This document shows, piece after piece, positions 5,504 to 61,735 of a stretch of 64,000 bases of DNA (position 1 is the first letter of the stretch; every line of letters begins with the position of its first letter). The translations under genes and the position numbers were made by a program. The notes beneath the pieces were generated by a model that saw nothing but the letters and a program-made list of their open reading frames with translations, was not told where the DNA came from and searched no databases. The stretch comes from Peristeroidobacter agariperforans (GTDB lineage: Bacteria > Pseudomonadota > Gammaproteobacteria > Steroidobacterales > Steroidobacteraceae): contig NZ_RYFW01000001.1 in the NCBI RefSeq assembly GCF_004138335.1, forward strand, positions 62,001 through 126,000, written 5' to 3'.

Positions 5504-5698
5504 ATGAACGCGACAGAACTGGAACGCGAGATCGCCGCCGTCTGTGCAGAGCTGCACGCGATCCCGCAACGCCTGGAAGCGGTGCCCCGGGACCTGCGCC
5601 ATCAGGCCGCCGCCGAACTCGTCGCTCTGCTGGCTCGAACGCTCGTGAACGTCAATCTCCTTCTACCGCCTGCGCCCGCGGATCAGCGAACTATATAA
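5504..5698 (+). CDS. Small helical protein of unknown function
   Basis: 64-aa ORF beginning MNATELEREIAAV. GGGAA precedes the ATG. The sequence is almost entirely predicted helix, with a leucine/alanine-rich second half, and ends in a proline-rich tail. It lies 160 bp upstream of the LuxR-type regulator in the same direction. I do not recognise a family. Confidence 0.45.
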   Translation: MNATELEREIAAVCAELHAIPQRLEAVPRDLRHQAAAELVALLARTLVNVNLLLPPAPADQRTI

Positions 5699-10402: not shown

Positions 10403-11158
10403 ATGCGACAGAAATACTGGATGGGCATATTCGCCAATCGTCTGGAGTTCGAGCTGGTCCCAGACGACTTGGACGCGTACCTTGATGATCATCGAGACCG
10501 CCGCACCTTTGCACCGAAGGCATACGTGCGTGTTGAGCGCCTGGAGCTCCGAGGCGTTGCCCGGCGAGCTCGATCAATGATTGAACGTCTTGTGGCTGAG
10601 GCCCCCGGCGAGCAATGGAATCCCTGCGCGGACTGGAATCCGGTTGGCGGAAATTACGTAGCATTTGCCTGGAACACGCCTGACAAGTGCAGCCTGCCGG
10701 TGGGCTTTACCACTTTCAGCGTCAACATTTTTGACGGCGATAAGTTGCGAATCGCGCCGACAAAAGACCCTATCTGTGATATTCAGCTTAGTCACGAGTT
10801 TGTGTTCGTCCGGCCTCAGCTGCGAGGCGTCGCCTTCGCGCGTTACCTGAGCCGCGGGATCGTCGAGTGGATCGAGAACTGCCGAGTCTCGCCGCCCCGG
10901 TGCTCCGCTGCTGGTGTCACGGTCCGTTATGACGCTGACATCATTAATGAGGGCGGAATGCGGTGTGCAGGAATTCTTATCGACCACTTTGAGTACCTGC
11001 AGGATTGTCGCCGTGAGCAAGGGTTGTCGCCGCGGCCGCGCTGGCTTGTTTCTAAATTTGTAGACGGCTCCGATTTCGAATACTGGATCCCCGAAGATCC
11101 GAACGCCCCGACCACGCGAGAGGGCGTGTCAGCCACGAAGGGATCCGATGTCTCGTGA
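10403..11158 (+). CDS. Hypothetical ICE protein
   Basis: 251-aa protein of unknown function beginning MRQKYWMGIFANRLEFELVP. I chose ATG 10403 because GGAGG lies seven bases before it; the longer frame back to 10136 overlaps the palindrome and has no protein-like character. No membrane segment or recognisable motif. It sits between two palindrome-containing gaps, in a place where ICE relatives carry variable genes. Confidence 0.6.
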   Translation: MRQKYWMGIFANRLEFELVPDDLDAYLDDHRDRRTFAPKAYVRVERLELRGVARRARSMIERLVAEAPGEQWNPCADWNPVGGNYVAFAWNTPDKCSLPVGFTTFSVNIFDGDKLRIAPTKDPICDIQLSHEFVFVRPQLRGVAFARYLSRGIVEWIENCRVSPPRCSAAGVTVRYDADIINEGGMRCAGILIDHFEYLQDCRREQGLSPRPRWLVSKFVDGSDFEYWIPEDPNAPTTREGVSATKGSDVS

Positions 11159-11379
11159 TTGCGCGGCTCACAAGGCCACGCGTCGGCGATTGTCTCGAAC
11201 TCGCGGCGCGTATGATCGCCGATCGCGTGCGCGTTCAATGCGGGCCTTCGGCGACGTATTTTGGACTTAGCGGTCGCAGAATAGCTCGGGGTCTGAGCCG
11301 ACCCGGCTGAATGATTTCGAGCAGATTGTTCTTTTGTTTCGACTCGTGGCCATCAGCCGTCGGCGGTGGCAACACGACC

Positions 11380-16273: not shown

Positions 16274-17821
16274 ATGAATGAACCTGAGTCGTTGATTACA
16301 TACGGCAGCGTTTGCAGCGGGATCGAGGCTGTGACGGTCGCATGGCGACCGCTCGGATTCTCGCCCGCATGGTTCGCAGACATCGACCCATTCGCAAACG
16401 CTTTGCTGGCCCATCACTATCCGCATGTCCCCAATCTCGGCGACATGACGTCCATCGCGCCGCAGATCCTTCGCGGCGACATCTGTGCGCCCGACATCTT
16501 GATCGGTGGCACACCTTGCCAGTCATTCTCGATCGCCGGGTTGCGCAAAGGGTTGCGTGATCCTCGCGGCGCACTCACTTTGCACTACGTGGAGCTTGCC
16601 AATGCCATCGATCAAACGCGCACACAACGTGGCCAACCGGCCACGGTCATCGCCTGGGAGAACGTCCCGGGCATCCTCTCCGATCGCGGCAACGCCTTCG
16701 GCTGTTTTCTTGGCGCGCTCGTTGGGGAGACGCGTGCATTGCAACCTCCAGGGCAGAAATGGACAAACGCTGGTTGTGTGTATGGACCCCAAAGAACAGC
16801 CGCGTGGCGGGTTCTTGACGCTCAACATTTCGGCGTCGCCCAACGACGCAAGCGCGTGTTCGTTGTCGCAAGTGCTCGTGAGGACCTCAATCCCGGCGCG
16901 GTACTATTTGAGTCCGAAAGCGTGCCAGGGCATTCTCCGCCGGGCGCGCAGGCGAGAGAAAACATTGCCAACACTCCTGCACCAGGCGCTGCAGGCGCAG
17001 GCCGGGCAGTTCAAGGCGCGACGCCGAGCTACTACGGACGAACGACACTGAGCGCGTCCTTCGGTGGTGGCAACACGAGTGGCCCCATTGACCTGGCTGC
17101 ATGCCTCACAGGGAACGGGCAGCGCAATGATTTTGAACACGAGACGTTCGTTGCTCAGGCGATCACCGGTGATGTCAGCCACACGCTCACCGCGGCCCAC
17201 GATGCTACCGAGGACGGCAATGGCCGGGGTGTACCGATCATCGCTGTCAAAGGCCAGTTTCCGTATGACAACTTTCCAGCGACACAGTCGGCACCTGTCA
17301 CCCTCGCATTCGCTGAGAACAGCCGCGGCGAACTCGGACTTGAAGGCAGAGACGGACAGCGCGTTGGCACATTGTCAGCCGGTGGCGGTAAGACGGGCCA
17401 GGGTGTTCCGACGATCGCCAGTGTCGCCTTGCGAGGACGCAAGCACGGAAGCGTGCCGGAACTCGGTGGCGATCTCGCCCCAACGCTTCGCGCATCCGGC
17501 GGGGGAAGCGATAAAGCACACGTGCTGTTGCCTCCGCTTGAGGCACACTTTGAATGCATTCCTCCATCGGCAAGCAAAGCGCTTCAAGGTGCATACGCGA
17601 CATGGCGCATTCGCCGGCTCATGCCGTTGGAATGTGAACGCCTCCAAGGCCTGCCCGAGCACTACACGCTGGTGCCCTATCGAGGGCAACCTGCCGCAGA
17701 TGGGCCTCGCTATCGAGCGATTGGTCTGAGTATGGCGGTCCCTTGTGTACGCTGGATTGGTCGGCGCTTGATCGTCACGCTGAGGCATGCGCAGGCGAGC
17801 CCTGCTTGCCAACGCCGCTGA
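16274..17821 (+). CDS. DNA (cytosine-5) methyltransferase
   Basis: Modifies cytosine at C5 using S-adenosylmethionine. Visible motifs: SVCSGIEAVTVAW (motif I), the catalytic GGTPCQSFSIAG (motif IV), AWENVPGIL (motif VI), QRRKRVFVVAS (motif VIII) and GLSMAVPCVRWIGRRL at the C-terminus (motif X). A roughly 220-residue variable insert with repeated GNTSGPIDLA-type and TLTA-type segments lies between motifs VIII and X, as in phage-type C5 enzymes. No partner endonuclease is adjacent, so it is probably a solitary enzyme that shields ICE DNA from host restriction. Confidence 0.92.
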   Translation: MNEPESLITYGSVCSGIEAVTVAWRPLGFSPAWFADIDPFANALLAHHYPHVPNLGDMTSIAPQILRGDICAPDILIGGTPCQSFSIAGLRKGLRDPRGALTLHYVELANAIDQTRTQRGQPATVIAWENVPGILSDRGNAFGCFLGALVGETRALQPPGQKWTNAGCVYGPQRTAAWRVLDAQHFGVAQRRKRVFVVASAREDLNPGAVLFESESVPGHSPPGAQARENIANTPAPGAAGAGRAVQGATPSYYGRTTLSASFGGGNTSGPIDLAACLTGNGQRNDFEHETFVAQAITGDVSHTLTAAHDATEDGNGRGVPIIAVKGQFPYDNFPATQSAPVTLAFAENSRGELGLEGRDGQRVGTLSAGGGKTGQGVPTIASVALRGRKHGSVPELGGDLAPTLRASGGGSDKAHVLLPPLEAHFECIPPSASKALQGAYATWRIRRLMPLECERLQGLPEHYTLVPYRGQPAADGPRYRAIGLSMAVPCVRWIGRRLIVTLRHAQASPACQRR

Positions 17822-18155: not shown

Positions 18156-18219
18156 ATGACGTGGTCTTTCGTTCCCTGCATTCTCTCTCACGCACCGCTG
18201 ACGACAGTCGGCACTGCAG

Positions 18220-18322
18220 GCAGCTATCGGTCTCTGCGGCTGCCCTGCGATTTTCGCAGCGACCGAAGCCAGTCCGCACGGCATCGTTCTACGCGGACGA
18301 TCGTCACCTGACGATGATGCCA
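18220..18322 (+). ncRNA. Structured leader element, copy A (three hairpins)
   Basis: Outer stem 1 CGGTC (18228-18232)/GACCG (18261-18265) encloses CTGCGA/TCGCAG (18245-18250, 18254-18259). Stem 2 is GTCCGC (18272-18277)/GCGGAC (18293-18298) with GCATC in its loop. Stem 3 is CGTCA/TGACG (18302-18313), followed by GATGCC. It lies 34 nt upstream of the gene at 18356. It aligns with the element at 40190 over about 80 bp; differences in the inner and third stems are compensated. Probable cis-acting RNA leader. Possible match to the published radC RNA motif, untested. Confidence 0.7.
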
Positions 18323-18355
18323 GATGTCACTGATCATTCCTGGGAGAACCTGTCC

Positions 18356-18751
18356 ATGGAAGACGATCCGACGACTGCGGCCCTGTTCGACGCGCTGGCT
18401 CGCGAGCAAGCACACTTCGCAGATGCGCCAGAAGCCTTCTTGCGCGCATGGAAGCAAGGCGTGGAACTCGCGGGCGTACGGTTCTTCGGGAACGGGACGC
18501 GCGAAGATCTCAATCGCGCCACCCGAAAGTGGGACTTGTGTCCCAACGTCACACTGATCAATGACGCAATCAACGTCTTGAGCCCGGGCGAAGCCATCTT
18601 CCTTGCGTCGCTCGTCAGCTTCTACGACTCCGACGACGGTGGGCGCCTGCTACGCCACGTCGGAGCGGACGGCCTTGCCGACCTTGGCCGACTCGATCTC
18701 AAACGCCGGACCGTCATCGCCGGCTTGCTGCTCCACTACACCGGTTGGTAG
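18356..18751 (+). CDS. Hypothetical ICE protein behind leader element A
   Basis: 131-aa protein starting MEDDPTTAALFDALAREQAH. I chose ATG 18356 because of the GGGAG before it and because the longer frame would run through the structured leader. Mostly helical, with a RTVIAGLLLHYTGW C-terminus. Family not recognised; composition and position match ICE accessory genes. Confidence 0.65.
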   Translation: MEDDPTTAALFDALAREQAHFADAPEAFLRAWKQGVELAGVRFFGNGTREDLNRATRKWDLCPNVTLINDAINVLSPGEAIFLASLVSFYDSDDGGRLLRHVGADGLADLGRLDLKRRTVIAGLLLHYTGW

Positions 18752-18843
18752 CGGCACAGGCGCCGCTCGGCACTTCTACTTCACCCCAGGGACAGTGCTC
18801 CCTGTGGAGCATTGTTCCTCCTTTCATACCAGAGGAGAGATCA

Positions 18844-19134
18844 GTGACGAAGAACATCACAGGCGACTCACAAGCCACCACGATTGCCCGCACGATCGAA
18901 GCGCTGACCGGCGGTCTGAGTCAATGCGCGAAGTGCAGCGCGGAGGCCAACATGCTTGCCAAACGTGGCAAGTTTGACGCAGCCGTCGGCACACTCGCAG
19001 GCATCGACGTGGTTCTGAGCGAATCCATCGCACTCTATCGAGCAACACTCGCCCTTCATCGTACGAGGCGGAAAGCCGACCGCGTCACAGCCAACCGTCA
19101 CATCTTCGCGGGCCGGCGACAGTACCACCGGTAG
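18844..19134 (+). CDS. Small hypothetical ICE protein
   Basis: 96-aa protein starting with GTG, six bases after AGGAG. Helical, with a CAKCSAEANMLAKRGKFD segment and a basic C-terminus (HRTRRKADRV, AGRRQYHR), which could bind nucleic acid. Two small hairpins just upstream (around 18789-18813) separate it from the previous gene. Family not recognised. Confidence 0.6.
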   Translation: MTKNITGDSQATTIARTIEALTGGLSQCAKCSAEANMLAKRGKFDAAVGTLAGIDVVLSESIALYRATLALHRTRRKADRVTANRHIFAGRRQYHR

Positions 19135-19264
19135 GACGACACTCGCAGGATTCCTGCGTGCGAGACCCTGATGTCAACTCTCTGGCAGACATGAATCGTG
19201 CGACCTCGCGCGAGAGACTGACCCCACATCCCGTTTTCGTTCTTCACCAGCAGGAGTACATTCC

Positions 19265-19822
19265 ATGACTTACGTCATTCATCAGAATCGCGTCAGCTTG
19301 CGAAGTCTCAAGACGGCCGACTTTGCCAGCCAGGAAACACTGTGCTTCTCTGCCACGGTGCTCCGTGACGGGCACCCGATTGCGGAGGCTCGAAACGACG
19401 GGCACGGCGGCTGCACAGTCCTTCGTCCGCTGAAGCGCAATCATGCGCAACTCGCCGAGGCAGAGGCCTTCGCGAGAACGCTTCCGCCGGTGATCGTCGA
19501 ACACGACGAAGACCCTTCGGGTAATCTCACCATCGACGTCACGCTCGAGTTTCTCGTCGATCATTTGGCGTCTCAGATGCATGCGGATAGAAAGATTCGT
19601 GCCGCGTTCAAGCGGCAATTCGCCAACGAGGTGCTCTACGTCAGAGACGACCAACTGCTGTACTTGAAGGGAGTTCCGCTCAAGACGGTGACGGACAGGT
19701 CGGCACTCTTTGCTTGGCTTCGAGCAAACCACAAATCGGACATCACCATTCTTGCCGAGCTTCCACTCGAGGAAGCGTTCTTGCTTTGGAAGCGTTACAT
19801 GCTCGAGGACGGGCGGTCATGA
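19265..19822 (+). CDS. Hypothetical ICE accessory protein
   Basis: 185-aa soluble protein beginning MTYVIHQNRVSLRSLKTADF. Mixed alpha/beta character with no catalytic motif I can identify. CAGCAGGAG lies upstream of the ATG. A perfect small hairpin (CGCAGGA/TCCTGCG, 19144-19158) stands in the gap before it, as between most genes of this region. Confidence 0.65.
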   Translation: MTYVIHQNRVSLRSLKTADFASQETLCFSATVLRDGHPIAEARNDGHGGCTVLRPLKRNHAQLAEAEAFARTLPPVIVEHDEDPSGNLTIDVTLEFLVDHLASQMHADRKIRAAFKRQFANEVLYVRDDQLLYLKGVPLKTVTDRSALFAWLRANHKSDITILAELPLEEAFLLWKRYMLEDGRS

Positions 19823-19942
19823 ACCCGTCGACAATCGCACGCAGAGTAATTCGGCGCCTGCGGACTGCCTATTCTCTCGGGACGTGAGTGGAGTGCTGCA
19901 CAATGCTTGGAACCATGTCTGCTGACATACGTCAGCTGCATG

Positions 19943-20038
19943 CCCGGTAGCTGTCGATCTTTGACGCTACCGATCCAGTTCGCTTCAGGCATCCCTCGGC
20001 GAACGCTCATCGGGTACGACGCTCGATGAAGATGCCAG
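19943..20038 (+). ncRNA. Structured leader element, copy E (three hairpins)
   Basis: Stem 1 CGGTAGC (19945-19951)/GCTACCG (19966-19972). Stem 2 GTTCGC (19978-19983)/GCGAAC (19999-20004) with GCATC in its loop. Stem 3 TCATCG (20007-20012)/CGATGA (20024-20029), then GATGCCAG. Stem 2 has two compensated base pairs relative to copies A and B. It lies about 105 nt upstream of the DUF3577 gene at 20144. Confidence 0.7.
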
Positions 20039-20143
20039 ATCGTTCTTCTCTCCTGTTCCGCGCGGACGCCTACGCCTTCCCCGCGGGACAGGCGTACGTC
20101 TCCGCGCTCTCGTTACATTCACGATCGCCCGGAGGCTTCTTCC

Positions 20144-20653
20144 ATGACCACGTTGAACTCCAAGTACTGCAATCTTCTCACAACCGGTGAGGGTCTTGTC
20201 GTTGACATCCACACGGAGCGAACTCGGTGGGGTCAAAGCCTGCTGGCCTGCCATATCAAGGCACTCCATGGGCTACGCGACAAGGCGGAATATCTTGACT
20301 ATGACGCGAGAGTCGTTGGGAAACAGGCTGAGCGTCTGATTCGAAAAGCCCAGAACGCTGTCAACGCTGGCTGCGATGTGCTGATCGCCTTCAAGGCCGG
20401 CGTTCGCTGGCTCAGCATTATCAAATACGATGACGACCACCCGAGGGCCGGCGAGATCGACATCGTGCAGAAAGCACGCCTGCTGTTTGTCCATTGGATG
20501 GACGTGGACGGCGTGCGCGTCTATACCGCCGAAGCCAGTGCCGTCCGAGACGGCAATGCTGAAGACGCGCTGACCGGCAATGACTCCTCCGATGCCGCCA
20601 CTCCCAAGCCGGCCGCCGCCGCTGACGTCACAGCGCTCGCTGCGTCAGCCTGA
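20144..20653 (+). CDS. DUF3577 (STY4534-family ICE replication) protein, copy 1
   Basis: 169-aa protein. The core (YCNLLTTGEGLVVDIH; LLACHIKALHGLRDKAEYLDYDARVVG; ARLLFVHWMDVDGVRVYTAE) matches the DUF3577/STY4534 family of ICEs, thought to act in ICE replication. The tail is Ala-rich. CGGAGG stands before the ATG. A second, diverged copy follows at 21462, and both have the same type of structured leader. An intrinsic-terminator-like hairpin follows at 20661. Confidence 0.8.
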   Translation: MTTLNSKYCNLLTTGEGLVVDIHTERTRWGQSLLACHIKALHGLRDKAEYLDYDARVVGKQAERLIRKAQNAVNAGCDVLIAFKAGVRWLSIIKYDDDHPRAGEIDIVQKARLLFVHWMDVDGVRVYTAEASAVRDGNAEDALTGNDSSDAATPKPAAAADVTALAASA

Positions 20654-20660
20654 TGCATAA

Positions 20661-20679
20661 GGCCCCCTTCTCGGGGGCC
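20661..20679 (+). terminator. Hairpin terminator after DUF3577 copy 1
   Basis: GGCCCCC/GGGGGCC with a TTCTC loop, eight bases after the stop and followed by CTTCTT. Confidence 0.65.
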
Positions 20680-20838
20680 CTTCTTGCGACTCGCTTCAGC
20701 CTCATCAAAGCACTCGTTGGACGCGAGTGTTGCAGGAACGTCTGCGCGCTTGCGTCGCTCTGCGATGTCATGCACGTGAACATTTGGCTCATGCCCTCCT
20801 CCCTGGCCTCTTCAACAAACCAACGCAAGGAGATGTCC

Positions 20839-21117
20839 ATGTCACAGACAAGCCGCACCGGGGGCTCGTCCAGCTATCTATTGCGATTCTCGGCCGTTGC
20901 ATCGGCGCTGATCCTCGTTAGAAAGGTTAGAGCCGTGTGGGTTGCGACCGAGCAGCACGCACTGAACCATCGACATGCCTATCGGGCGGCCCACACCAGC
21001 CTCCACTTGACGTATCTTGCGCTCGTTGCTGCGCATGGTCCTTACAATCTGGCTGCCGGCGTGCTCTTTGTCGTCATGGCCTTTGGATGGGCTCTGCGCC
21101 TGGACGCCGAGTCCTGA
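20839..21117 (+). CDS. Small hypothetical protein with hydrophobic segments
   Basis: 92-aa protein. ATG 20839 has AAGGAG six bases upstream (a second ATG at 20833 touches the Shine-Dalgarno). Two hydrophobic stretches (LLRFSAVASALILV near the start; AAGVLFVVMAFGWAL near the end) suggest an inner-membrane hairpin. Family not recognised. Confidence 0.55.
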   Translation: MSQTSRTGGSSSYLLRFSAVASALILVRKVRAVWVATEQHALNHRHAYRAAHTSLHLTYLALVAAHGPYNLAAGVLFVVMAFGWALRLDAES

Positions 21118-21248
21118 GAGAACTTGCGGGCAAGTCGGTACCCATCATCAATGCGGTGCGCCTCACGTTCTCATTGCCGCGCGACGATTCGGACCGTTTC
21201 AATCCATCCTCACCGCATGTCTGCTGAATCACCAGCAACATGCCAGTA

Positions 21249-21353
21249 GTCATCGGTCCGTTGGACTACGACGCGGCTTGCGCCGCGTGACCGAACCAGT
21301 TCGCAAAGCATCCTTTGTGCGAACGTCATCAAGTCAACCTGATGATGGATGCC
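21249..21353 (+). ncRNA. Structured leader element, copy D (three hairpins)
   Basis: Stem 1 CGGTC (21254-21258)/GACCG (21289-21293) encloses the perfect inner stem ACGCGGC/GCCGCGT (21271-21288, TTGC loop). Stem 2 GTTCGC (21299-21304)/GCGAAC (21319-21324) with GCATC in its loop. Stem 3 TCATC (21326-21330)/GATGA (21341-21345), then GATGCC. Lies about 110 nt upstream of DUF3577 copy 2. Confidence 0.7.
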
Positions 21354-21461
21354 ACCGTCGTCCCTTCTGATCCTTTGACCCATGCGGGGCTTAAGTCGCT
21401 TGTTCCTGTTGGACCAAGCGACGTCTGCCCGCTTCATTCGTGCAACTTACGGAGATTCGTC

Positions 21462-21962
21462 ATGACGCTCCCATCCCCCAACGTGGACTTCTACAACCTG
21501 CAGACCGCAAACATTCGTGGCGTAGGCCAGGTCAAGCAGGTCCGTTCCGTCACGCCCAGGCGAGGCAAGCCGTTCACTGCCTGCACACTCGTCGCGCTGC
21601 TTGGCCCCAGCAAGCAACCCAGACACCGATACTTCGACTGCGAAGTGACCGGGCAAGTTGCTGCGCAAGAGATTCTGAAATGCAAGGAAGCCTGCGACGC
21701 CGGCCGCAAGATCATGATCAAGTTCGAACTCAGTGCGGCTGAACTCAATCCGTTCACCTATCGCAACGGCGACAGAAAGGACGAGGTTGGCTTTACTGAG
21801 AAGGCCAGTTTGGCCGCCATCGATTGGCTCACGATCGATGATGAGCTGAAATATCAGGCCGATGTCAACGCCAACTCCAAGGACGCCGCGGACGAACTCG
21901 CTCCTGCGGCGTCCGCCACCAATGCCATCGTGTCTCCGGAGCCCATCGCTGCCGCTTCGTGA
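21462..21962 (+). CDS. DUF3577 (STY4534-family) protein, copy 2
   Basis: 166-aa paralogue of the gene at 20144. Shared layout: FYNLQTANIRGVGQV; FTACTLVALLGPSKQPRHRY; FDCEVTGQVAAQEILKCKEA; a C-terminal LAAIDWLTIDDELKYQ strand; then an Ala-rich tail. ACGGAG precedes ATG 21462; the frame extends upstream through the structured leader, which is why the later start was chosen. Confidence 0.8.
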   Translation: MTLPSPNVDFYNLQTANIRGVGQVKQVRSVTPRRGKPFTACTLVALLGPSKQPRHRYFDCEVTGQVAAQEILKCKEACDAGRKIMIKFELSAAELNPFTYRNGDRKDEVGFTEKASLAAIDWLTIDDELKYQADVNANSKDAADELAPAASATNAIVSPEPIAAAS

Positions 21963-36311: not shown

Positions 36312-36435
36312 CTGACCAAATCGCTCGCGAGACGCCCGCTATCGCTGGCGTGCGACTTACCGCGCGACTATTCCATCCTCGCTGAATCATCTCGCGCTCG
36401 TGTGTGACTGACTGCGTCAGCACCAAGCCAGGCGG

Positions 36436-36500
36436 CCATAGGTCCTCGAGGCTGCGCTGCGGTTCCCCGCAGTGACCAGAACTATCAGCTCGACATGCTG
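36436..36500 (+). ncRNA. Structured leader element, copy C (partial match)
   Basis: GGTC (36441-36444)/GACC (36474-36477) encloses CTGCGG/CCGCAG with a TTCC loop and keeps GGCTGCG on the 5' side, as in copies A and B. The following stem is CAGC/GCTG and lacks the GTYCGC strand, so this is the least certain copy. Lies about 80 nt upstream of the gene at 36579. Confidence 0.4.
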
Positions 36501-36578
36501 ACGGTCGTACTCGGACGCAGCAATGCCGATGCAGGGACTCTCCAAAATCATCCACACCCGCTATGCGAGGACTCGAAC

Positions 36579-36815
36579 ATGGCCGATGCTAAGATCGTTT
36601 CCGTCACCATAGGACCGATGCCACGTACGCTACCTGAAGGAATGGGTGACCCCATGCCAAAGGTTCACGCTTATTTCGATGATGGGACCGACGAGGTGCT
36701 CTTTCATTACTATCCGGATGAGATCTCCCTCACAGAGAGTGAGTTTATCGGGCTCACAGCTTTGGAAGCCAAAGCGCTACGTCGTCTCAAAGACGTTAGT
36801 TACTTGCGCTCCTGA
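36579..36815 (+). CDS. Small hypothetical protein inside the T4SS cluster
   Basis: 78-aa protein starting MADAKIVSVTIGPMPRTLPE, with GAGGA before ATG 36579. Predicted beta-rich N-terminus (VHAYFDDGTDEVLFHYYPDE) and helical C-terminus. Not a known T4SS part; it is flanked by structured element C and a strong terminator, so it is an independent cargo gene. Confidence 0.65.
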   Translation: MADAKIVSVTIGPMPRTLPEGMGDPMPKVHAYFDDGTDEVLFHYYPDEISLTESEFIGLTALEAKALRRLKDVSYLRS

Positions 36816-40122: not shown

Positions 40123-40189
40123 GGATCGGCGCCAACGCGTGTTCACTGCTGCAGTGAGCTCTCCGCTCGTCCATCTTGATCTCGATTCT

Positions 40190-40296
40190 GCAGCTATCGG
40201 TCTTTCAGGCTGCGTGCGGCTCTGCGCATCGACCGAAACCCAGTCCGCATATGCATCGTAGCCGCGGACCTTCACCAGCACATCTGGTGGCGATGC
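40190..40296 (+). ncRNA. Structured leader element, copy B (three hairpins)
   Basis: Stem 1 CGGTC (40198-40202)/GACCG (40231-40235), with a short inner TGCG/CGCA pair. Stem 2 GTCCGC (40243-40248)/GCGGAC (40264-40269) with GCATC in its loop. Stem 3 CACCAG (40273-40278)/CTGGTG (40284-40289), then CGATGC. It aligns directly to copy A at 18220 although the genes behind the two are unrelated. Lies about 90 nt upstream of the gene at 40389. Confidence 0.7.
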
Positions 40297-40388
40297 ACTT
40301 CTCTTCAGCCAAGTCAGCGATCTTCGAAAGATGGCGTGCATCTTTCAAACAGTCGTGCCTTTTCAACCACTCACTGACGGGAGATGAT

Positions 40389-40820
40389 ATGCACACTCAT
40401 AATATACGCAGCGCCGGGGCCCTCTATGTCGAACGGCTGCAGCAAGCTGTCCGAGTCATGAAAGGACTTTCGGAAGACGAGCGTTCGCACTTCGATATTG
40501 ATCTGTTCGCGATTCGCAACAAGAGCGGCGTTTCCGCATGCATTGCCGGCTTCTGTGGTTTTGATCCGTGGTTCCAGGCCGAAGGCTTTATGACCACCGT
40601 TGGCGACGATAAGTCCCTATCCCGCGGACAGGTCAGTATCCCCGTGGAGATCTTTTTCGGTACTGAGGAACCGTTCTACCGTTCCGGCTATGGGCCTGCG
40701 TTTCGCGACCGTCCGATCTCAGTCGATCAGGCCATCGCGGCACTAAACAGGGCAATTGCGTCATTCGATGCGAGCTCGAACACCGAGACTCCTTCAGCCG
40801 GCGCATCAAGAGCGGACTAA
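40389..40820 (+). CDS. Hypothetical ICE protein behind leader element B
   Basis: 143-aa protein, GGGAG before ATG 40389. N-terminal amphipathic helix (GALYVERLQQAVRVMKGLSE), then alternating strands with two cysteines (CIAGFCGFDPWFQAEGF) and a C-terminal helix with a Ser-rich tail. No recognised family. The upstream frame runs through the structured leader, so the later start is preferred. Confidence 0.65.
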   Translation: MHTHNIRSAGALYVERLQQAVRVMKGLSEDERSHFDIDLFAIRNKSGVSACIAGFCGFDPWFQAEGFMTTVGDDKSLSRGQVSIPVEIFFGTEEPFYRSGYGPAFRDRPISVDQAIAALNRAIASFDASSNTETPSAGASRAD

Positions 40821-49855: not shown

Positions 49856-51670
49856 ATGACGTTCGCACTGTTCCGCAAAAAAGCGGCTGCACAACCTGAG
49901 AGCGCGTCGGCTCCGGCGCAGGCGCTGCCGAAAGGGCTGCTGCCGCCCGAATCCGCGGCCAGATTGCTCGCGACGCCGCGTCGTCAACAACTCCTTGATC
50001 ACATCTGGCAGCGCACGTCACTTTCGCGCGCGCAGTTCGCATCGCTCTACCGCGCGCCGATCGAGCGCTACGCTCTCCTCGTCCAGCAGTTTCCCGCAAG
50101 CGAGACGCACCATCACGCGCACCTGGGCGGCATGCTAGATCACGGCTTGGAGATCGTCGCTTACGCGTTGCGGCTGCGGCAGTCACATCTGCTACCGGTG
50201 GGTTCGCCGCCTGAATCGCAAGCGGCCCAGGCGGAGGCCTGGACTGCCGGCGCCGCATACGCCGCGCTCCTGCACGATGTCGGCAAGATCGCAGTCGACC
50301 TACACGTCGAGCATCAGGACGGCCGCCGCTGGTATCCGTGGCACGGCCCACTGCAGAAGCCCTATCGGTTTCGTTTCCGACGCGATCGCGCGTATCGATT
50401 GCACGGCGCCGCTGCAGGTTTGGTGTACACGAACATCCTTGACCCACTGATCATGGATTGGCTCAGCGGCTTTCCTGAACTTTGGGCGGCGCTGCTCTAT
50501 GTGCTCGCCGGCCAATACGAACATGCGGGAATTCTGGGCGAGCTCGTCGTGCAAGCCGACCAAGCCTCGGTCGCACAAGATCTCGGCGGAGACCCAGCGA
50601 AAGCACGCACCGCTCCAAAGCGGACCCTGCAACGCCAGTTGATCGACGGTCTGCGCTATCTCGTGAGAGAGCTGAAACTCAACCAGCCTCACGCGTCCGA
50701 TGGATGGTTGACACAGGATGCTTTGTGGCTGATCAGCAAGACAACTTGCGACAGGTTACGCGCACATCTGCTCTCACAAGGAATCGACGGGATCCCGGAA
50801 AACAACGTCACGTTTTTCAATGCGCTGCAGGATCATGGGATTGTGTTGGCGGCGCCCAACGGCAAGGCGATCTGGCGAGCGACAGTCATCAGCGATGCCG
50901 GCTGGTCGAATACTTTCACTTTCCTGCGGCTGTCCCCTGCGATGATCTGGGAAGCCAATGAGCGTCCACCGACGTTCAAGGGGACGATTCGGATCGAGGA
51001 CGCTGCGGATTCGAGAAGAGAGACAACACCGGCCGCCCACGCTTTGACAAGTACGCCAGCTGAGCACGCCAGTGCTGGTTCATCGCATGTCGAAGCCATT
51101 CATCAAGAGGCGGTCAAAGACGCACTCGCCCTTTCGGATCTGCCCAGCGCTTGTCCTGCGTCCGACGACAACGCCGAGCGTGCCAGCGCCCCGATATCAA
51201 TGTCGGATGGTGAAAGCACGCGCATGCACAGCAATCCATCCACCCCGCCGGTCGAAGCACCCGGCGAGAGGTTCATCACTTGGTTACGCGACGCCGTCGC
51301 GAGTCACCGCCTCATCATCAATGACTCGCGCGCGCTCGTTCACACGGTTGACGGCACGGCATTTCTCGTTTCACCTGGCGTATTTCAACGCTATGCACAG
51401 GAAAACCCCGAACTCGCCGAAGCCGCCCGGCATGACGGAATGGCGGCATGGGAATGGATTCAGAAGCGCTTCGAACGCCTGCGCGCACACAAGAAACAAC
51501 GGAATGGACTCAATATTTGGACGTGCGAAGTGACGGGGCCGCGTAAGAGTCGGCGGCTGCACGGCTACCTGCTGATCGATGGTCACGCGATATTTTCGCA
51601 GCTGCCGCCGAACAACCTGTACCTAAAAGTTCAGACGGATAGCAAAAATCCGAATGCAGCTGCTGCATGA
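49856..51670 (+). CDS. traI: MobH-type relaxase TraI (TIGR03760)
   Basis: 604-aa relaxase that nicks oriT and leads the strand into the T4SS. The N-terminal TraI_2 domain carries the MobH histidine block (ETHHHAHLGGMLDHGLEI, residues 83-100) and the HD pair in LLHDVGK (residues 139-144). After a disordered Ser/Ala/Thr linker (about 390-460) comes the C-terminal TraI_2_C-type domain (FITWLRDAVASHRLIINDSR; VSPGVFQRYAQENPELAEA). Length and order match ICE TraI of Pseudomonas. An upstream ATG at 49846 in another frame has the stronger AGGAG but stops quickly. Confidence 0.93.
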   Translation: MTFALFRKKAAAQPESASAPAQALPKGLLPPESAARLLATPRRQQLLDHIWQRTSLSRAQFASLYRAPIERYALLVQQFPASETHHHAHLGGMLDHGLEIVAYALRLRQSHLLPVGSPPESQAAQAEAWTAGAAYAALLHDVGKIAVDLHVEHQDGRRWYPWHGPLQKPYRFRFRRDRAYRLHGAAAGLVYTNILDPLIMDWLSGFPELWAALLYVLAGQYEHAGILGELVVQADQASVAQDLGGDPAKARTAPKRTLQRQLIDGLRYLVRELKLNQPHASDGWLTQDALWLISKTTCDRLRAHLLSQGIDGIPENNVTFFNALQDHGIVLAAPNGKAIWRATVISDAGWSNTFTFLRLSPAMIWEANERPPTFKGTIRIEDAADSRRETTPAAHALTSTPAEHASAGSSHVEAIHQEAVKDALALSDLPSACPASDDNAERASAPISMSDGESTRMHSNPSTPPVEAPGERFITWLRDAVASHRLIINDSRALVHTVDGTAFLVSPGVFQRYAQENPELAEAARHDGMAAWEWIQKRFERLRAHKKQRNGLNIWTCEVTGPRKSRRLHGYLLIDGHAIFSQLPPNNLYLKVQTDSKNPNAAAA

Positions 51671-56747: not shown

Positions 56748-57338
56748 CAATCAAGGCTGGGGGACGCGGTGCGCGTTGCATCTGGCTATCCACTCCGCAG
56801 CTCGGTTGAGTTGCTGGAGCCGGGCGATGTCCATTTTGTGCAGATCAAGCACACGAGCCCCGATGCGGACATTGACTGGAGCCAGGTGCCTCAGGTCTCG
56901 CTGCCGTCCAAACGTGAGCCCGTCTGGCTCTCCGATGCAGATGTGGTATTCACGTCGCGCGGCACACGCACACTGGCCTACCCACTAGTTGGCACGCCGT
57001 CGAAGGCCGTTTGCGCTCCGCAGTTCTTCGTACTGAGCGTGCGGGAGATCGGAAAAATCTCGCCAGAGTTCTTGGCTTGGCAGATCAATCAAAAGCCTGC
57101 GCAAGACTACTTTCAGCGAACCGCGACGGGCTCATACATCCAGAACATTCGACGGGAAGTTATCGAGAACCTCCCGATAACTATTCCACCTATTCAGCAG
57201 CAGCGGCTCATCGTGAAGTTCTGGCGAGCCGCGCAGCTTGAGCGCATCACGCTCAACCGCCTCGTCGAAAATCGAAATCACCAATTAGAAGCCCTAGCAA
57301 TGGGTCTTCTGCAATCAACAAACGGAGTCAAAGCATGA
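56727..57338 (+). CDS. Half-size type I restriction specificity-like (HsdS) protein
   Basis: 203-aa protein with a single target-recognition unit: LGDAVRVASGYPLRSSVELL at the start, FVLSVREIGKISPEFLAWQI in the middle, and the HsdS hallmark FQRTATGSYIQNIRREVIEN, LPITIPPIQQQRLIVKFWRA at the end of the unit, followed by a coiled-coil arm. Normal HsdS has two such units (see 58839). It is the first gene of the operon, with its stop overlapping hsdM as ATGA. If ATG 56727 is used the mRNA is nearly leaderless. It may provide an alternative specificity or modulate the complex. Confidence 0.75.
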   Translation: MRHDAINQSRLGDAVRVASGYPLRSSVELLEPGDVHFVQIKHTSPDADIDWSQVPQVSLPSKREPVWLSDADVVFTSRGTRTLAYPLVGTPSKAVCAPQFFVLSVREIGKISPEFLAWQINQKPAQDYFQRTATGSYIQNIRREVIENLPITIPPIQQQRLIVKFWRAAQLERITLNRLVENRNHQLEALAMGLLQSTNGVKA

Positions 57339-58849
57339 GCCCACAAATCAAACAAGAAGACATCAATAAAGCGGTGTGGGAGGCGTGCGACACGTTCCGT
57401 GGCACCGTCGATGGCTCCGTCTATAAAGACTATGTGCTGACGATGCTGTTCCTGAAATACATCAGTGATGTTTGGCAGGACCACTACGACAACTACAAAA
57501 AAGAATACGGCGATGAGCCGGGCCTCATCGGCGAAATGATGAAGAATGAACGCTTCACTCTTCCCGAAGCTGCGAACTTCTATGCGCTCTACAAGCGCCG
57601 TCATGAAGCCGGAAACGGCGAACGCATCGACAAAGCGCTGCACGCGATTGAGGAAGCCAACATCTCGAAGCTGCGCGATGTGTTCCAAGACATCAGCTTC
57701 AACTCCAACAAGCTCGGTGAGGAAGCGCAGAAGAACGAACTACTCAAGCACCTACTAGAGGACTTCGCGAAGGAAACTCTCAATCTGAGCCCAAGCCGCA
57801 TCGGCAAGCTTGATGTTATCGGAAACGCATATGAATTCCTGATCAAGCAATTCGCCGCCGACTCTGGCCGGAAGGCGGGAGAGTTCTATACGCCGCCAGA
57901 GGTTTCTGAACTGATGGCCGAGATCGTCGCGCCGAAAGAAGGTGACGAAATCTGCGATCCAACGTGCGGCTCCGGCTCCCTGCTCATGAAGTGCGGCAGA
58001 CGCATTCAGATCGAACACAATGGCTCAAAGAAATACGCGCTGTACGGCCAAGAGGCAATTGGCAGCACGTGGGCCCTCGCCAAGATGAACATGTTCCTGC
58101 ACGGCGAAGATAACCATCGCATCGAATGGGGCGACACGATTCGCAATCCGAAGCTCCTCGACAAAGAGGATCAGCTAAAGCATTTCGATGTCGTCGTTGC
58201 AAACCCTCCTTTCAGTATGGAGAAGTGGGGTCATGGCACAGCCGAGAATGACAAGTTCGGTCGCTTCCGTCGCGGTGTTCCGCCGAAAACAAAAGGCGAC
58301 TATGCCTTCATCCTGCACATGGTTGAGACCATGAAGCCAAAGACGGGCCGCATGGCAGTCGTCGCGCCAACTGGGGTCCTCTTCAGAGGATCATCCGAGG
58401 GCCAGATCAGACAGAAACTAATTGAGGAAAATCTCCTCGACGCCGTGATCGGTCTGCCCGAGAAGCTGTTTTATGGAACGGGCATTCCCGCAGTCATTCT
58501 GGTGCTGCGCAAGAACAAGAAGGATAAGAACGTCCTGTTCATTGACGCGAGCCGCGAGTTCGTGTCCGGCAAGAATCAAAACCAGCTATCCGATGAGCAC
58601 GTCGCTCGGATCGTGACAACATATCAGGCGCGAAAAAGTGTCGATTCATACGCGTATCTGGCAACGCCCGAAGATTTGAATGACAACGAAAACAACCTCA
58701 ACATCCCGCGCTATGTAAACACCTTCGAGGAAGAAGCGGAGATCGATCTCGTTGCCGTGCGCGCCGAGCGTAGAAAGCTGCAAGCGGAGCTTAGCGATCT
58801 CGAAAAGCTGATGGATGGGTACTTGAAGGAGCTGGGCTATGGTTCCTGA
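57335..58849 (+). CDS. hsdM: Type I restriction-modification methyltransferase subunit
   Basis: 504-aa N6-adenine methyltransferase. HsdM N-terminal helical domain (YVLTMLFLKYISDVW), GEFYTPPEVSELM (183-195), motif I DPTCGSGSL (208-216) and catalytic NPPF (290-293). Works with HsdS to methylate the target and with HsdR to restrict. Overlaps the genes on both sides. Confidence 0.96.
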   Translation: MSPQIKQEDINKAVWEACDTFRGTVDGSVYKDYVLTMLFLKYISDVWQDHYDNYKKEYGDEPGLIGEMMKNERFTLPEAANFYALYKRRHEAGNGERIDKALHAIEEANISKLRDVFQDISFNSNKLGEEAQKNELLKHLLEDFAKETLNLSPSRIGKLDVIGNAYEFLIKQFAADSGRKAGEFYTPPEVSELMAEIVAPKEGDEICDPTCGSGSLLMKCGRRIQIEHNGSKKYALYGQEAIGSTWALAKMNMFLHGEDNHRIEWGDTIRNPKLLDKEDQLKHFDVVVANPPFSMEKWGHGTAENDKFGRFRRGVPPKTKGDYAFILHMVETMKPKTGRMAVVAPTGVLFRGSSEGQIRQKLIEENLLDAVIGLPEKLFYGTGIPAVILVLRKNKKDKNVLFIDASREFVSGKNQNQLSDEHVARIVTTYQARKSVDSYAYLATPEDLNDNENNLNIPRYVNTFEEEAEIDLVAVRAERRKLQAELSDLEKLMDGYLKELGYGS

Positions 58850-60068
58850 GGGTTGGCGCGCGGTGCCAGTGTCAGACATTTGCACATTGAAGAATGGACA
58901 CGGCTTCAAGCCGCAGGAATGGGACACGAAAGGTCTACCTATTATACGAATTCAAAATCTAAACGGTAACGAGAACTTCAACTACTTCTCCGGCGAGCCA
59001 GAAAAGGAATGGGTCGTTGAGCCGGGCCAGATGCTTTTTGCATGGGCCGGAACGAAGGGTGTCTCATTTGGCCCCACGATCTGGAGAGGACAGACTGGCG
59101 TATTGAATCAGCACATCTTCAAGGTATTGCCCGATACAGCTGTAGACGAAGACTGGCTCTTCTACTGCCTCCGATCAGTCACCGAGCGCATCGAACGCAA
59201 AGCCCACGGCTTCAAGGCGACGTTGGTACACGTTAGGAAATCAGAGATCGACAATCAGATCATTCTCTGCCCGCCGATTGGTGACCAGAAACGAATCGCC
59301 GAGATCCTTTCGACGTGGGATCGCGCAATCGGTGTTACTGAGAACCTCATGAAAAATAGTAGAGCGCAGAAAACTGCGCTATTGCAGCAACTGTTGACAG
59401 GCAAAACGCGCTTCCCAGAACACGTTCGTTCAAGAAGCTTTAAGAACACGGCGTATGGACGAATTCCAAGCGACTGGGACTTTGTTCATATCAGCGACGT
59501 TGCGCGAGAAGTTTCCAGCAGGAACGCGGATGACCATGACTATCCCGTAGTCTCGTGCTCAAAACATCGTGGGTTCGTGAACTCTCTGGAGTACTTCAAA
59601 AAGCAGGTGTTCAGCGAGAACCGAACGACCTACAAAATCATAAGCAGAGGCCAGTTTGGCTTTCCCTCAAATCATATCGAGGAAGGATCGATTGGCCATC
59701 AAGATCTCCACGATCATGCACTCGTTAGTCCAATCTATTGCGTATTTGAGGCCAGCGAGAGAATCAATCACAGATACTTGTATAGCCTTCTAAAGACCGA
59801 CCGTTACCGACAGCTATTCTCCGCCGCGACAAATGGTTCTGTGGATCGCCGAGGCAATCTCCGCTGGAAAGAATTCTCCAAAATTGGCGTATTTCTTCCG
59901 TCGCTGGAAGAACAAGAGTCCATTACTTCGGCAATCGGCATTTTAGATCGCAACCTGCGAACTAAAGAGGCGCTGCTTGCCAAGCTTCGCCAGGAGAAAT
60001 CCGCCCTCATGCAACAGCTTCTGACCGGCAAGCGTCGCGTGAAGATCGACAAGGAGATCGCAGCATGA
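58839..60068 (+). CDS. hsdS: Type I restriction-modification specificity subunit
   Basis: 409-aa protein with two target-recognition domains separated by a coiled-coil arm. The first unit ends ILCPPIGDQKRIAEILSTWD, the second VFLPSLEEQESITSAIGILD; each is followed by a helix ending ALLQQLLTGKTRF or ALMQQLLTGKRRV. Determines the DNA sequence recognised. Overlaps hsdM by 11 bases and the DUF6119 gene by four. Confidence 0.95.
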   Translation: MVPEGWRAVPVSDICTLKNGHGFKPQEWDTKGLPIIRIQNLNGNENFNYFSGEPEKEWVVEPGQMLFAWAGTKGVSFGPTIWRGQTGVLNQHIFKVLPDTAVDEDWLFYCLRSVTERIERKAHGFKATLVHVRKSEIDNQIILCPPIGDQKRIAEILSTWDRAIGVTENLMKNSRAQKTALLQQLLTGKTRFPEHVRSRSFKNTAYGRIPSDWDFVHISDVAREVSSRNADDHDYPVVSCSKHRGFVNSLEYFKKQVFSENRTTYKIISRGQFGFPSNHIEEGSIGHQDLHDHALVSPIYCVFEASERINHRYLYSLLKTDRYRQLFSAATNGSVDRRGNLRWKEFSKIGVFLPSLEEQESITSAIGILDRNLRTKEALLAKLRQEKSALMQQLLTGKRRVKIDKEIAA

Positions 60069-61735
60069 GTAAGTCACGTTCGTTTTCAATTTACCTTCTT
60101 AAGGAAGGGTTCGACGCGTCGAACGCACTGAAGGACAATCACAAGCTCGACGCCGAGGTCGTGGGCGAAAACCTGCCCGAGGGCTCCTCCCTCTACATCC
60201 TCGACACGCCGCCGACCGCGCCGTGGTGGAAAGGTTATTTCGGCATTCAGGAGCCGCTGACGCAAAGCCTCAAGGGCGCGATCATCTTTCTCCCGGTTGC
60301 CAACCGCACTTTCGCAATCACCTTCGGCCACGTCTATCACAATTTCCATGAAGCCAGTTACGAATACGACTTCGGCCTGCGCGTCACGCTGAACTGCCTT
60401 GATCCGGAAAAGCTCAAGAGCACGGACATCTTGGAGCCGAGCGGTGCGAAGCGTCAGCGAACTCAGGTCCCCATCGACTCCGATCTCACATTCTTCGATT
60501 TCGACCGCGACACGACCATTCTGAAGAGCCTGACGGGCAAGGTGCGCGCCGAATACAAGGGCCTTTTCGGCCACGCGACGGGCGCGAGCAACATTCGTAT
60601 CAGCTCCGACGTGACGCCTGAAGGTTTGCCGGGTCTCTGCGAGCAGTTACTCGATCTGTATTCGTCAGAGACATACAAGGTCAACTTCCCGGACATCCAG
60701 AACATCTCGCCTGTACGCGATCCCGGAACGATTGCGTTACTGAACGTGAGACTGCTCGATGCCGTGAAGGCGAAGAGCTTCGATCTGGCTCTCAGCGCAC
60801 CGAAGATTCTCGACTACCACGACGAGCTGTGGGCCACGTTCTCCGGCGCGGGCAGCGGCCTTGTTTACGACGACATTTTTATCGGCCGCTATTACGAGTA
60901 CCTCGAAATCTGCGAAGTCGATTTCAACGCAATCGACAACGACACTCTCAAGAATCACTGCCTCGTGCTGACGAATGAGGACGGCGAAGCTCGCGGCGAA
61001 CGCTACTCGATCTACAAGTGCCTCGTGTTCGACACGACATTGAACAGCGCGAAGCAGACTTACCATCTCTGCGAGGGCAACTGGTATCTCGTCGAGAACG
61101 ACTTCGTAACGCGGCTATCCACGTACCTTGATCCGCTCTGTGCCGCGACGACACTGCCCAACTTCAATCACGAAGACGAAGGCGAGTTCAATAAGGCCGT
61201 GGCGGCGACTGGCACAGCCATTCTTTGCCTCGACAAAACGTCTATCGCGCCAGCGGGACAGAAGGCGGTCGAGCCTTGCGATCTGTACGAACTGAAGAAC
61301 GGTCAGGCGATCCTGCATCACGTCAAGATTTCGACGTTATCGGCGCAGCTCAGCCACCTGTTCAATCAGGGCACGAACTCCATTCACCTGCTGCGCGACG
61401 ATGACGAATCGCGCAAGCGCTTAACGGGCTTGGTCGAGGAAAAGGCACCCGCAGGGAACGTTGCCGACTTTACGGCGCCGATTGCTGCCGACAATTTCAA
61501 GATCGTGTTCGGCGTGGTGACGCATAAGAACCCCGCCGCCAAGTCTGCCAACCTGCCGCTCTTCTCACGCATCAGCCTCATGCGGGCGATGAAGGATATG
61601 AAGCGCATGGGCATTGACGCGGAGCTGTGCTTCATCAAGGACGACTCGGTGACGACGGCTGGCAAGGTAAAAAAGCGAAAGCCCCGCGCCAAAAAACAGG
61701 CAGACGACGGAATTGAAGAGGCAGAAGCGGCATGA
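60065..61735 (+). CDS. DUF6119 (TIGR04141, sporadically distributed) protein inside the restriction operon
   Basis: 556-aa protein resembling the TIGR04141/DUF6119 family: N-terminal FSIYLLKEGFDASNALKD; WWKGYFGIQEPLTQSLKGAI; FGHVYHNFHEASYEYDFGLR; central YSIYKCLVFDTTLNSAKQTY; and a basic C-terminal tail (KVKKRKPRAKKQ). Molecular function unknown; the family occurs patchily and often near defence genes. It overlaps hsdS and hsdR by four bases (ATGA) on each side, so it is made with the restriction enzyme and is likely a working part of this variant. Confidence 0.85.
   Translation: MSKSRSFSIYLLKEGFDASNALKDNHKLDAEVVGENLPEGSSLYILDTPPTAPWWKGYFGIQEPLTQSLKGAIIFLPVANRTFAITFGHVYHNFHEASYEYDFGLRVTLNCLDPEKLKSTDILEPSGAKRQRTQVPIDSDLTFFDFDRDTTILKSLTGKVRAEYKGLFGHATGASNIRISSDVTPEGLPGLCEQLLDLYSSETYKVNFPDIQNISPVRDPGTIALLNVRLLDAVKAKSFDLALSAPKILDYHDELWATFSGAGSGLVYDDIFIGRYYEYLEICEVDFNAIDNDTLKNHCLVLTNEDGEARGERYSIYKCLVFDTTLNSAKQTYHLCEGNWYLVENDFVTRLSTYLDPLCAATTLPNFNHEDEGEFNKAVAATGTAILCLDKTSIAPAGQKAVEPCDLYELKNGQAILHHVKISTLSAQLSHLFNQGTNSIHLLRDDDESRKRLTGLVEEKAPAGNVADFTAPIAADNFKIVFGVVTHKNPAAKSANLPLFSRISLMRAMKDMKRMGIDAELCFIKDDSVTTAGKVKKRKPRAKKQADDGIEEAEAA

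Follow-up and report, generated by a model that had tools for sequence, protein, structure and literature searches.

radC RNA of integrative and conjugative elements as a candidate translational leader: tandem pseudoknots, a predicted Shine-Dalgarno-masking hairpin and a probable relationship to STAXI RNA

A stretch of 64,000 nucleotides (nt) of the Peristeroidobacter agariperforans genome (assembly GCF_004138335.1, contig NZ_RYFW01000001.1, positions 62,001 to 126,000; hereafter the window, by whose own numbering positions are given) carries five copies of radC RNA. By its gene content the window is part of an integrative and conjugative element (ICE) of the PFGI-1 class, with genes for ParB (TIGR03764), PFL_4669 (TIGR03761), TopB, TraD (TIGR03754), TraC (TIGR03744) and the PFGI-1-class relaxase MobH (49856-51670, +; NF041494, TIGR03760), which identifies the element. 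Using cmscan with all 4227 families of Rfam 15, radC RNA (RF01754, gathering score 40 bits) was the sole family found at gathering in the window, with five matches of 47.1-81.2 bits, all on the + strand: copy A (18184-18320; 66.7 bits, E 3.1e-10), copy E (19904-20035; 57.7 bits, E 3.4e-8), copy D (21206-21352; 81.2 bits, E 1.6e-13), a fifth copy (36389-36521; 51.5 bits, E 8.8e-7) and copy B (40156-40296; 47.1 bits, E 8.9e-6). STAXI RNA (RF01728, gathering score 40.5 bits) gave no window match at gathering.

The initial annotation had described copies A, E, D and B as a family of three-hairpin RNA leaders, overlooking the fifth, and had proposed radC RNA as candidate identity; all four lie where it placed them and score above gathering. 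Its fallback, an undescribed RNA class, is ruled out for the window copies because Rfam matches them; they extend the membership of a known family. The leaders had been placed 34-110 nt before a start codon, and counted from the motif end the start codon comes after 35 nt in A, 108 nt in E, 109 nt in D and 92 nt in B. The window copies stand 35-109 nt 5' of ICE open reading frames (ORFs), as radC RNAs do. The proteins encoded behind them had been called unrelated. The 131-aa gene behind A (18356-18751, +; 35 nt past the motif) and the 143-aa gene behind B (40389-40820, +) have no Pfam or NCBIfam match at E 0.01, but the genes behind E (20144-20653, +) and D (21462-21962, +) both encode relatives of the ICE replication protein STY4534/DUF3577 (NF040584, 100.1 and 110.7 bits, below the curated cut-off of 160). 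The fifth copy precedes a 78-aa gene (36579-36815, +) without NCBIfam match.

For the analysis of the family, 25 copies were aligned and used to build a covariance model containing nested stems only, which retrieved 127 hits in 96 sources. Removal of rows more than 90% alike left 75, of which 69 are full-length and six partial. Two further helices absent from this pseudoknot-free model emerged from the alignment that it made. In the first (PK1), the loop of hairpin P1 pairs with bases 3' of hairpin P2; in the second (PK2), the loop of P3 pairs with bases 3' of P4. Across the 69 copies, pairing with the copy's own partner averaged 5.20 for PK1 against 4.08 when partners were permuted (best of 2000 permutations 4.45), and 6.17 for PK2 against 4.70 (best of 2000, 5.19). 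Among 121 distinct rows, 94.1% of cells are paired, 926 double changes were counted against 291 after shuffling, all five covariation measures exceed 500 of 500 shuffles, and sliding the partner columns abolishes the signal; both-side changes occur at 5 of 5 PK1 pairs and 3 of 6 PK2 pairs. The consensus stems of radC RNA are thereby backed by covariation, and the view of a functional RNA with compensating base changes is borne out. From partner permutation and column covariation together, comparative sequence evidence shows radC RNA as a 5' hairpin, P0, followed by two H-type pseudoknots in tandem, each holding an inserted hairpin. Both units are built on one plan, which runs from the first strands of stem 1 and stem 2 through a linker to the second strand of stem 1, the inserted hairpin and the second strand of stem 2. 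The three hairpins first described are therefore real but incomplete, since P0 and both pseudoknots belong to the motif, and GCATC..GATGC and CGGTC..GACCG are in fact second strands of the two pseudoknots.

These helices can be followed in the window copies (all +), where the stems looked up in A, E and D were found as exact sequence matches. In copy A, pseudoknot 1 (18220-18266) consists of P1 GCAGCT/GGCTGC (18220-18225, 18238-18243), the P2 hairpin (18245-18259) and PK1 TCGGTC/GACCGA (18227-18232, 18261-18266), and pseudoknot 2 (18272-18321) of P3 GTCCGC/GCGGAC (18272-18277, 18293-18298), the P4 hairpin (18302-18313) and PK2 GGCATC/GATGCC (18280-18285, 18316-18321); both rest on exact matches and family covariation. 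Copy D is complete, with P0, P1, P2, PK1, P3, P4 and PK2 all present. Its pseudoknot 1 (21246-21294; exact match) comprises P1 GTAGTC/GACTAC (21246-21251, 21264-21269), P2 (21271-21288) and PK1 TCGGTC/GACCGA (21253-21258, 21289-21294), and its pseudoknot 2 (21299-21352; exact match, descriptor search) P3 GTTCGCA/TGCGAAC (21299-21305, 21318-21324), P4 (21326-21345) and PK2 GCATCC/GGATGC (21308-21313, 21347-21352). In copy B, exact matches and a descriptor search gave PK1 TCGGTC/GACCGA (40197-40202, 40231-40236) and PK2 TGCATCG/CGATGCA (40252-40258, 40291-40297), and the descriptor search also shows the P2 hairpin GTGCGGCTCTGCGCAT. Copy E lacks the P2 hairpin and has a reduced PK1, and PK2 of the fifth copy is degenerate, its longest pairing being 3. 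A strict pseudoknot descriptor was also applied to 18 single leaders with 60 shuffles each, a test of little power: its score was reached by none of the 60 shuffles in seven leaders (L114, window copies D, including its pseudoknot 1, E and B, L121, L122 and L126), by 1 for L116 and by 4 for L125.

Short copies apparently consist of unit 1 alone (L054:12233-12338, L072:18529-18632, L062:10310-10413) or of unit 2 alone (L011:739-828), and because such single-unit copies exist, the sequences suggest that the pseudoknot units are modules. The Rfam radC model, as printed by cmscan, agrees with this anatomy in P0, P1, P2 and P4, but is without P3, both pseudoknots and the platform described below, and has instead a three-pair helix around P4. 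Rivas 2020 (PMC7657543) counts radC among the RNAs with more covariation than their database structure explains, and states that its Rfam and ZWD structures differ. Covariation supports more pairs in that work, and the pseudoknots were perhaps already noted there, in which case they would be new only in part.

The strand under constraint was judged from wobble pairs. In the 75 rows, G.U outnumbers A.C by 120 to 31 in the nested stems and by 56 to 24 in the pseudoknots, where independent columns predict about 1.4:1; the longest PK2 helix averages 6.17 with G.U allowed and 5.35 with A.C. On balance, the constraint appears to fall on the gene-sense strand, as for an RNA. Upstream, related copies carry a sigma-70-like promoter, with TTGACA at -35 and a NATNNT -10 box formed by the first bases of Rfam's motif. 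TTGACA was matched at 5 of 6 positions or better and at the right spacing in 36 of 88 distinct upstream regions, against a shuffled mean of 2.4 (maximum 6) and 1 and 6 matches at control offsets. Because the -10 box overlaps the first motif bases, transcription is predicted to start at the 5' end of the RNA, near CAUG of P0. Window copies A and D have weak versions only (TGACG or CGACGA, 17 nt, CATTCT or CATCCT). For instance, the promoter-like pair of A (TGACG 18157-18161, 17 nt, CATTCT 18179-18184, +; exact match) fits the consensus of related copies in position and is a weak match to the sigma-70 consensus.

Behind the motif, a second structured region seems to provide the output of the leader. 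With our ORF script, 80 of the 127 hits were found to have an ATG ORF with a Shine-Dalgarno sequence (SD) 50-140 nt downstream, and 51 remained after removal of similar leaders; 249 other ORF starts with SD, taken without curation from the window and 26 related loci, served as controls. Predicted SD accessibility lay below 10% in 41 of the 51 leaders and in 63 of the 249 controls (Mann-Whitney p 1e-14), and its mean in the family leaders was 0.077 compared with 0.181 when the upstream sequence was shuffled. The SD is usually buried by a hairpin, P6, beside the start codon, for example GTGTTTCTCC...GGAGAAACAC directly followed by CATG. The arms of P6 co-vary in the 51 leaders (8.84 against 8.30 pairs, best of 5000 permutations 8.69) in a swap test used in its re-optimised version, as choosing the arm to fit its own partner biases the test. 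In addition, the 5' arm of P6 has a possible second partner in the region around hairpin P5, which lies ahead of it. In 46 of the 51 leaders, this pairing is more stable with the leader's own partner than with permuted ones (-10.67 against -9.26 kcal/mol, with -10.31 as the best value in 5000 permutations). This pairing may serve as an alternative that unmasks the SD. At the level of the family, both structured SD masking and an alternative fold are therefore predicted, as in riboswitch-like translational leaders.

Possible platforms can be drawn for window copies E and B (both +). In E, competing arms TACGCCTTCCC (20071-20081) and GGGACAGGCGTA (20085-20096) precede a predicted P6, GTCTCC..GGAGGC, over the SD (20098-20103, 20131-20136). 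In B (40326-40386, exact matches), GAAAGATG (40326-40333) and the SD-bearing GGGAGATG (40379-40386) can both pair with CATCTTTC (40339-40346). The SD of D, GGAGAT (21451-21456, +), is predicted to be 91% paired. A platform-like CAGGGACAGTGCTCCCTGTGGAGCATTGTTCCTCC...GGAG was also seen by eye at 18780-18844 of the window, before a GTG start that has no radC RNA. A search for P5 plus P6 in ICE loci returned 18 of 501 ORF starts, 5 of them with radC and many of the others looking spurious. A group of radC copies of 144-145 nt, at L079:4092-4236, L102:4685-4829 and L107:4274-4417, shows no visible platform, and the next + genes at L079 encode DUF3987 and an integrase, apparently in a different integrative element.

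A connection with STAXI RNA became apparent in the leaders of DUF3577 genes. Fifteen such leaders from 12 genera were compared, 12 of them from a tblastn search of plasmids (62 matched, 30 listed) and three, from E. coli, found by similarity to a STAXI leader. STAXI precedes the DUF3577 gene in 7 of the 15 (Pantoea, Salmonella, Erwinia, Serratia and the three E. coli), including most of the Enterobacterales leaders fetched, and radC does so at gathering in 2 (Pseudomonas aeruginosa, Stutzerimonas); neither family reaches gathering in the remaining 6. The 12 leaders from the protein search alone divide into 2 with radC, 4 with STAXI and 6 with neither. An Enterobacter ludwigii record left out of the 15 encodes a protein 83% identical to one of the radC type. 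In predicted folds inspected by eye, a P5-like hairpin and an SD-covering hairpin are present in all 15, and of the 14 whose SD accessibility was scored, 12 do not exceed 0.014. One E. coli plasmid carries a STAXI copy ahead of a different gene (L123:5169-5327, gene at 5554), followed by a like platform.

STAXI resembles radC in its tandem pseudoknots, 5' hairpin, P5/P6-like platform and place before STY4534, here in Enterobacterales elements, and the strand order in its alignment is, by eye, that of radC. It differs in having UUCG loops and CCAAUG where radC has CCCAG, and in being typed by Rfam as a small RNA (sRNA) and not as cis-regulatory. Weinberg 2010 describes STAXI as two or three repeats of a pseudoknot close to genes for Ssb, topoisomerase, antirestriction proteins and integrase, and considered folded single-stranded DNA for it; the table row for radC reads 'Y' for RNA, 'y' for cis-regulatory and '?' for switch. 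Tandem pseudoknot repeats near DNA-handling genes are equally found in radC, which is to say that it is built like STAXI, not that it is a member of that family. Transcription is supported for STAXI alone, by published RNA-seq and quantitative PCR (qPCR): a STAXI sRNA at topB is listed in an RNA-seq table of Pectobacterium atrosepticum (PMC4710047), and STAXI was found by qPCR in vesicles of one E. coli strain (PMC12370729). In the literature covered, which consisted of titles, openings of abstracts and selected passages, neither a radC-STAXI link nor a mechanism for radC was found. A search for RF01728 in 369 genomes of the class gave no match and cannot show absence. R1 reached 19.5 bits within the L122 topoisomerase gene and gave some weak matches at other places, all of which were taken as chance.

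Other leader forms were also seen. A Klebsiella DUF3577 leader was examined because our radC model gave it 11.5 bits; radC (28.7 bits, E 0.0012) and STAXI (23.1 bits, E 0.0062), both below gathering, are its two best matches among the 4227 families and cover overlapping bases on the same strand. Inside the inserted hairpin of its pseudoknot 1 lies a dispersed repeat of about 127 bp (L116:14729-14855), presumably ERIC-like, and 336 plasmid records share some part of the 411-base query. Leaders of Vibrio and Shewanella plasmids have a form of their own before DUF3577 (L118:14782-14819, L127:2798-2838, L128:1132-1176 and 2808-2852, L130, L131, L132, L133-L135), with an invariant GCACACG...GTGTCGCG in 9 rows. 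Judged by eye, its strand order is that of radC and STAXI, and its second strand pair co-changes (GCTTTC/GAAAGC, GCGTTC/GAATGC, CTCTT/AAGAG). L118, L127 and L128 have no Rfam match at gathering, and for L128 this extends to the looser limit of E 10. Two copies of this form, standing before two genes, lie in the first 50 kb of pVS127. On the same plasmid (L136), the genes at 25701, 26287, 26747 and 28964, downstream of DUF3577, have SD-masking, platform-like leaders without a sensor pattern, again by eye.

It is likely, on this comparative evidence, that radC RNAs are cis-acting 5' translational leaders of single ICE genes, forming one class with STAXI and working as SD-masking switches. Transcription would start at the 5' end of the RNA, and the leader would fold into P0 and two tandem H-type pseudoknots; behind the motif, in most relatives with a nearby gene, P5 would be followed by P6 burying the SD. 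The 5' arm of P6 could pair alternatively with the P5 region, by which we infer a switch, and the gene would be poorly translated unless the upstream domain, probably when bound by a factor, favours that alternative. The trigger might be an ICE protein, a host protein, a metabolite or an RNA; our guess is a protein, in view of the tandem repetition and modular look of the domain. Since STAXI occupies the matching position before this family's STY4534 gene in Enterobacterales, with its strands in the order of radC and a platform of similar build, the two RNAs most probably represent lineages of a single class of translational leaders in elements of the PFGI-1/SPI-7 type, presumably of common descent. 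A broader proposal, that radC, STAXI and the undescribed Vibrio/Shewanella form are one class of three-stem-pseudoknot chains at mRNA 5' ends in conjugative elements of the PFGI-1/SPI-7 type, with a shared bistable platform that lets an element switch on a set of DNA-handling genes together at the level of translation, possibly on entry into a new host that lacks an element factor, is put forward tentatively, as plausible and still short of probable.

Several observations weigh against the proposed leader function or against parts of it. Of the 127 hits, 47 have no nearby ATG ORF with SD by our criteria, and a large group among these is platform-less. No single window copy clearly masks its SD better than shuffled sequence does: the SD of E is 0.01 unpaired against a shuffled mean of 0.07, yet 12% of 40 shuffles are as low; D stands at 0.09 against a null of 0.10, and B at 0.12 against 0.11; the SD of the fifth copy is unmasked (0.78 unpaired), and A shows no SD-masking platform in its predicted fold. 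RNAalifold returned 0 pairs from a MAFFT alignment of 40 platforms because the platform regions are too gappy. The strand test is weakened for PK1, as its longest helix is slightly longer with A.C (5.28) than with G.U (5.20). In nine of the 18 leaders, the pseudoknot descriptor was reached by 7-60 of the 60 shuffles; these include most of the STAXI leaders, most of those without an Rfam family and one radC leader, and the best match in L115 lies away from the place of STAXI. As to the union of the two families, the radC and STAXI models do not cross-detect each other above threshold, a second STAXI copy on L123 stands about 700 nt before an integrase gene with no masking hairpin there, and the Burkholderia, Comamonas and one of the Vibrio leaders that were tested gave no match to either family at E values as high as 10.

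Other functions can be imagined for the same structures. P6 might sense temperature or ions directly and open with no dedicated factor, and hairpins that mask the SD are indeed characteristic of RNA thermometers. In many leaders, however, P6 is predicted as a long helix (for example 10-13 pairs), and so intricate a domain of tandem pseudoknots would serve no purpose, which makes this very unlikely. We give as little credence to processive antitermination of the put type, in which the nascent leader would modify RNA polymerase for terminator read-through. It would suit this function that the RNA at the predicted +1 is structured, that one element can hold several copies and that terminator-like sequences were seen by eye just before some radC promoters, but it would presuppose a bypass of downstream terminators and leaves P6 unexplained. 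A stabilising role, in which the pseudoknots shield the mRNA against decay that depends on its 5' end while P6 tunes translation without any switch, accords with the structure at the predicted transcript 5' end, with the variety of downstream genes and with platform-less copies, in which sensor and platform occur apart. Such a stabiliser needs neither a conserved SD-masking hairpin nor a competing arm, and we regard it as unlikely.

That these RNAs act mainly in trans, their function in the mRNA being secondary, is suggested by Rfam's sRNA type for STAXI and by reports of it as an sRNA in Pectobacterium RNA-seq (PMC4710047) and in vesicles of one E. coli strain (PMC12370729). Since a masked SD beside the start codon accompanies the leader, and since leader processing can also yield short RNAs, this seems highly improbable. 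The least credible candidate function is that of a single-stranded-DNA promoter like Frpo, or a folded T-strand, used when the ICE enters as single-stranded DNA. Frpo promoters drive leading-region genes (PMC11541004), and Weinberg 2010 raised folded single-stranded DNA for STAXI; RadC and ICE replication genes lie downstream, and by the longest-helix measure PK1 tolerates A.C about as well as G.U. Across all columns, in contrast, the gene-sense strand favours G.U over A.C, and the T-strand template is its complement; the -35 and -10 elements are of the duplex type and lie at and upstream of the motif start, outside the fold; copies within a 52-kb stretch of G690, possibly a single element, point both ways (three +, one -); and conserved SD masking requires RNA. 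Neither template-strand structure nor -35/-10 elements inside the fold was found, PK1 alone being equivocal, and on the strand of the wobble pairs, the promoter position and the mixed orientation such a promoter was judged unlikely.

As regards the genes served, 49 distinct proteins of at least 70 aa with an ATG start 20-215 nt past the motif include 10 DUF3577 proteins (the STY4534 family of ICE replication proteins), 3 RadC and, weakly, 2 KfrB; the other Pfam families listed have one protein each, except Prok-JAB with 3. The search of the P. agariperforans genome itself listed four of the five copies, all inside the window, E (57.7 bits by cmscan) being unlisted there. With that genome included, radC RNA was found in 4 of 217 genomes of its family (3 over the cut-off) and in 6 of 398 drawn from the phylum; it was found in 222 of 398 genomes of one genus, which we infer to be Pseudomonas. 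The window ICE also carries cargo at 16274-17818, 57335-60065 and 60065-61732 (a Dcm-type methyltransferase, HsdM, a weak HsdS-like protein and a TIGR04141 protein). Two CsrA-family genes lie on the same contig outside the window (G000:C9:144822-144977 and 11152-11307) and are possible RNA-binding candidates. PLSDB labels a hypothetical gene of 58 codons (L114:14351-14527), which lies between two copies of radC RNA, as OXA-573; this resistance call looks spurious.

Comparable arrangements exist elsewhere. In the preQ1-II riboswitch and other three-stem pseudoknots, an H-type pseudoknot with an inserted hairpin is linked to SD access. radC differs from these in having at least two tandem units and an SD masked by a separate hairpin. 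Three-stem pseudoknots are treated as riboswitches in PMC11262651. PK-repZ of ColIb-P9 is a plasmid leader whose pseudoknot controls translation (PMC12370729). PK-repZ is not known to have tandem units, and its genes and trigger are different ones. What seems new is the anatomy of pseudoknots plus platform, the overlap of the 5' bases of the Rfam model with the promoter, and the link between radC and STAXI.

radC and STAXI have been separate orphan RNAs since 2010. Their shared anatomy, with transcript start and SD-masking output both predicted, makes their function approachable by simple reporters. If the proposed reading is true, the half of the leader that provides its output is absent from the Rfam models, cis-regulatory would be the proper type for STAXI, and a common layer of translational control would lie over the transfer genes of conjugative elements.

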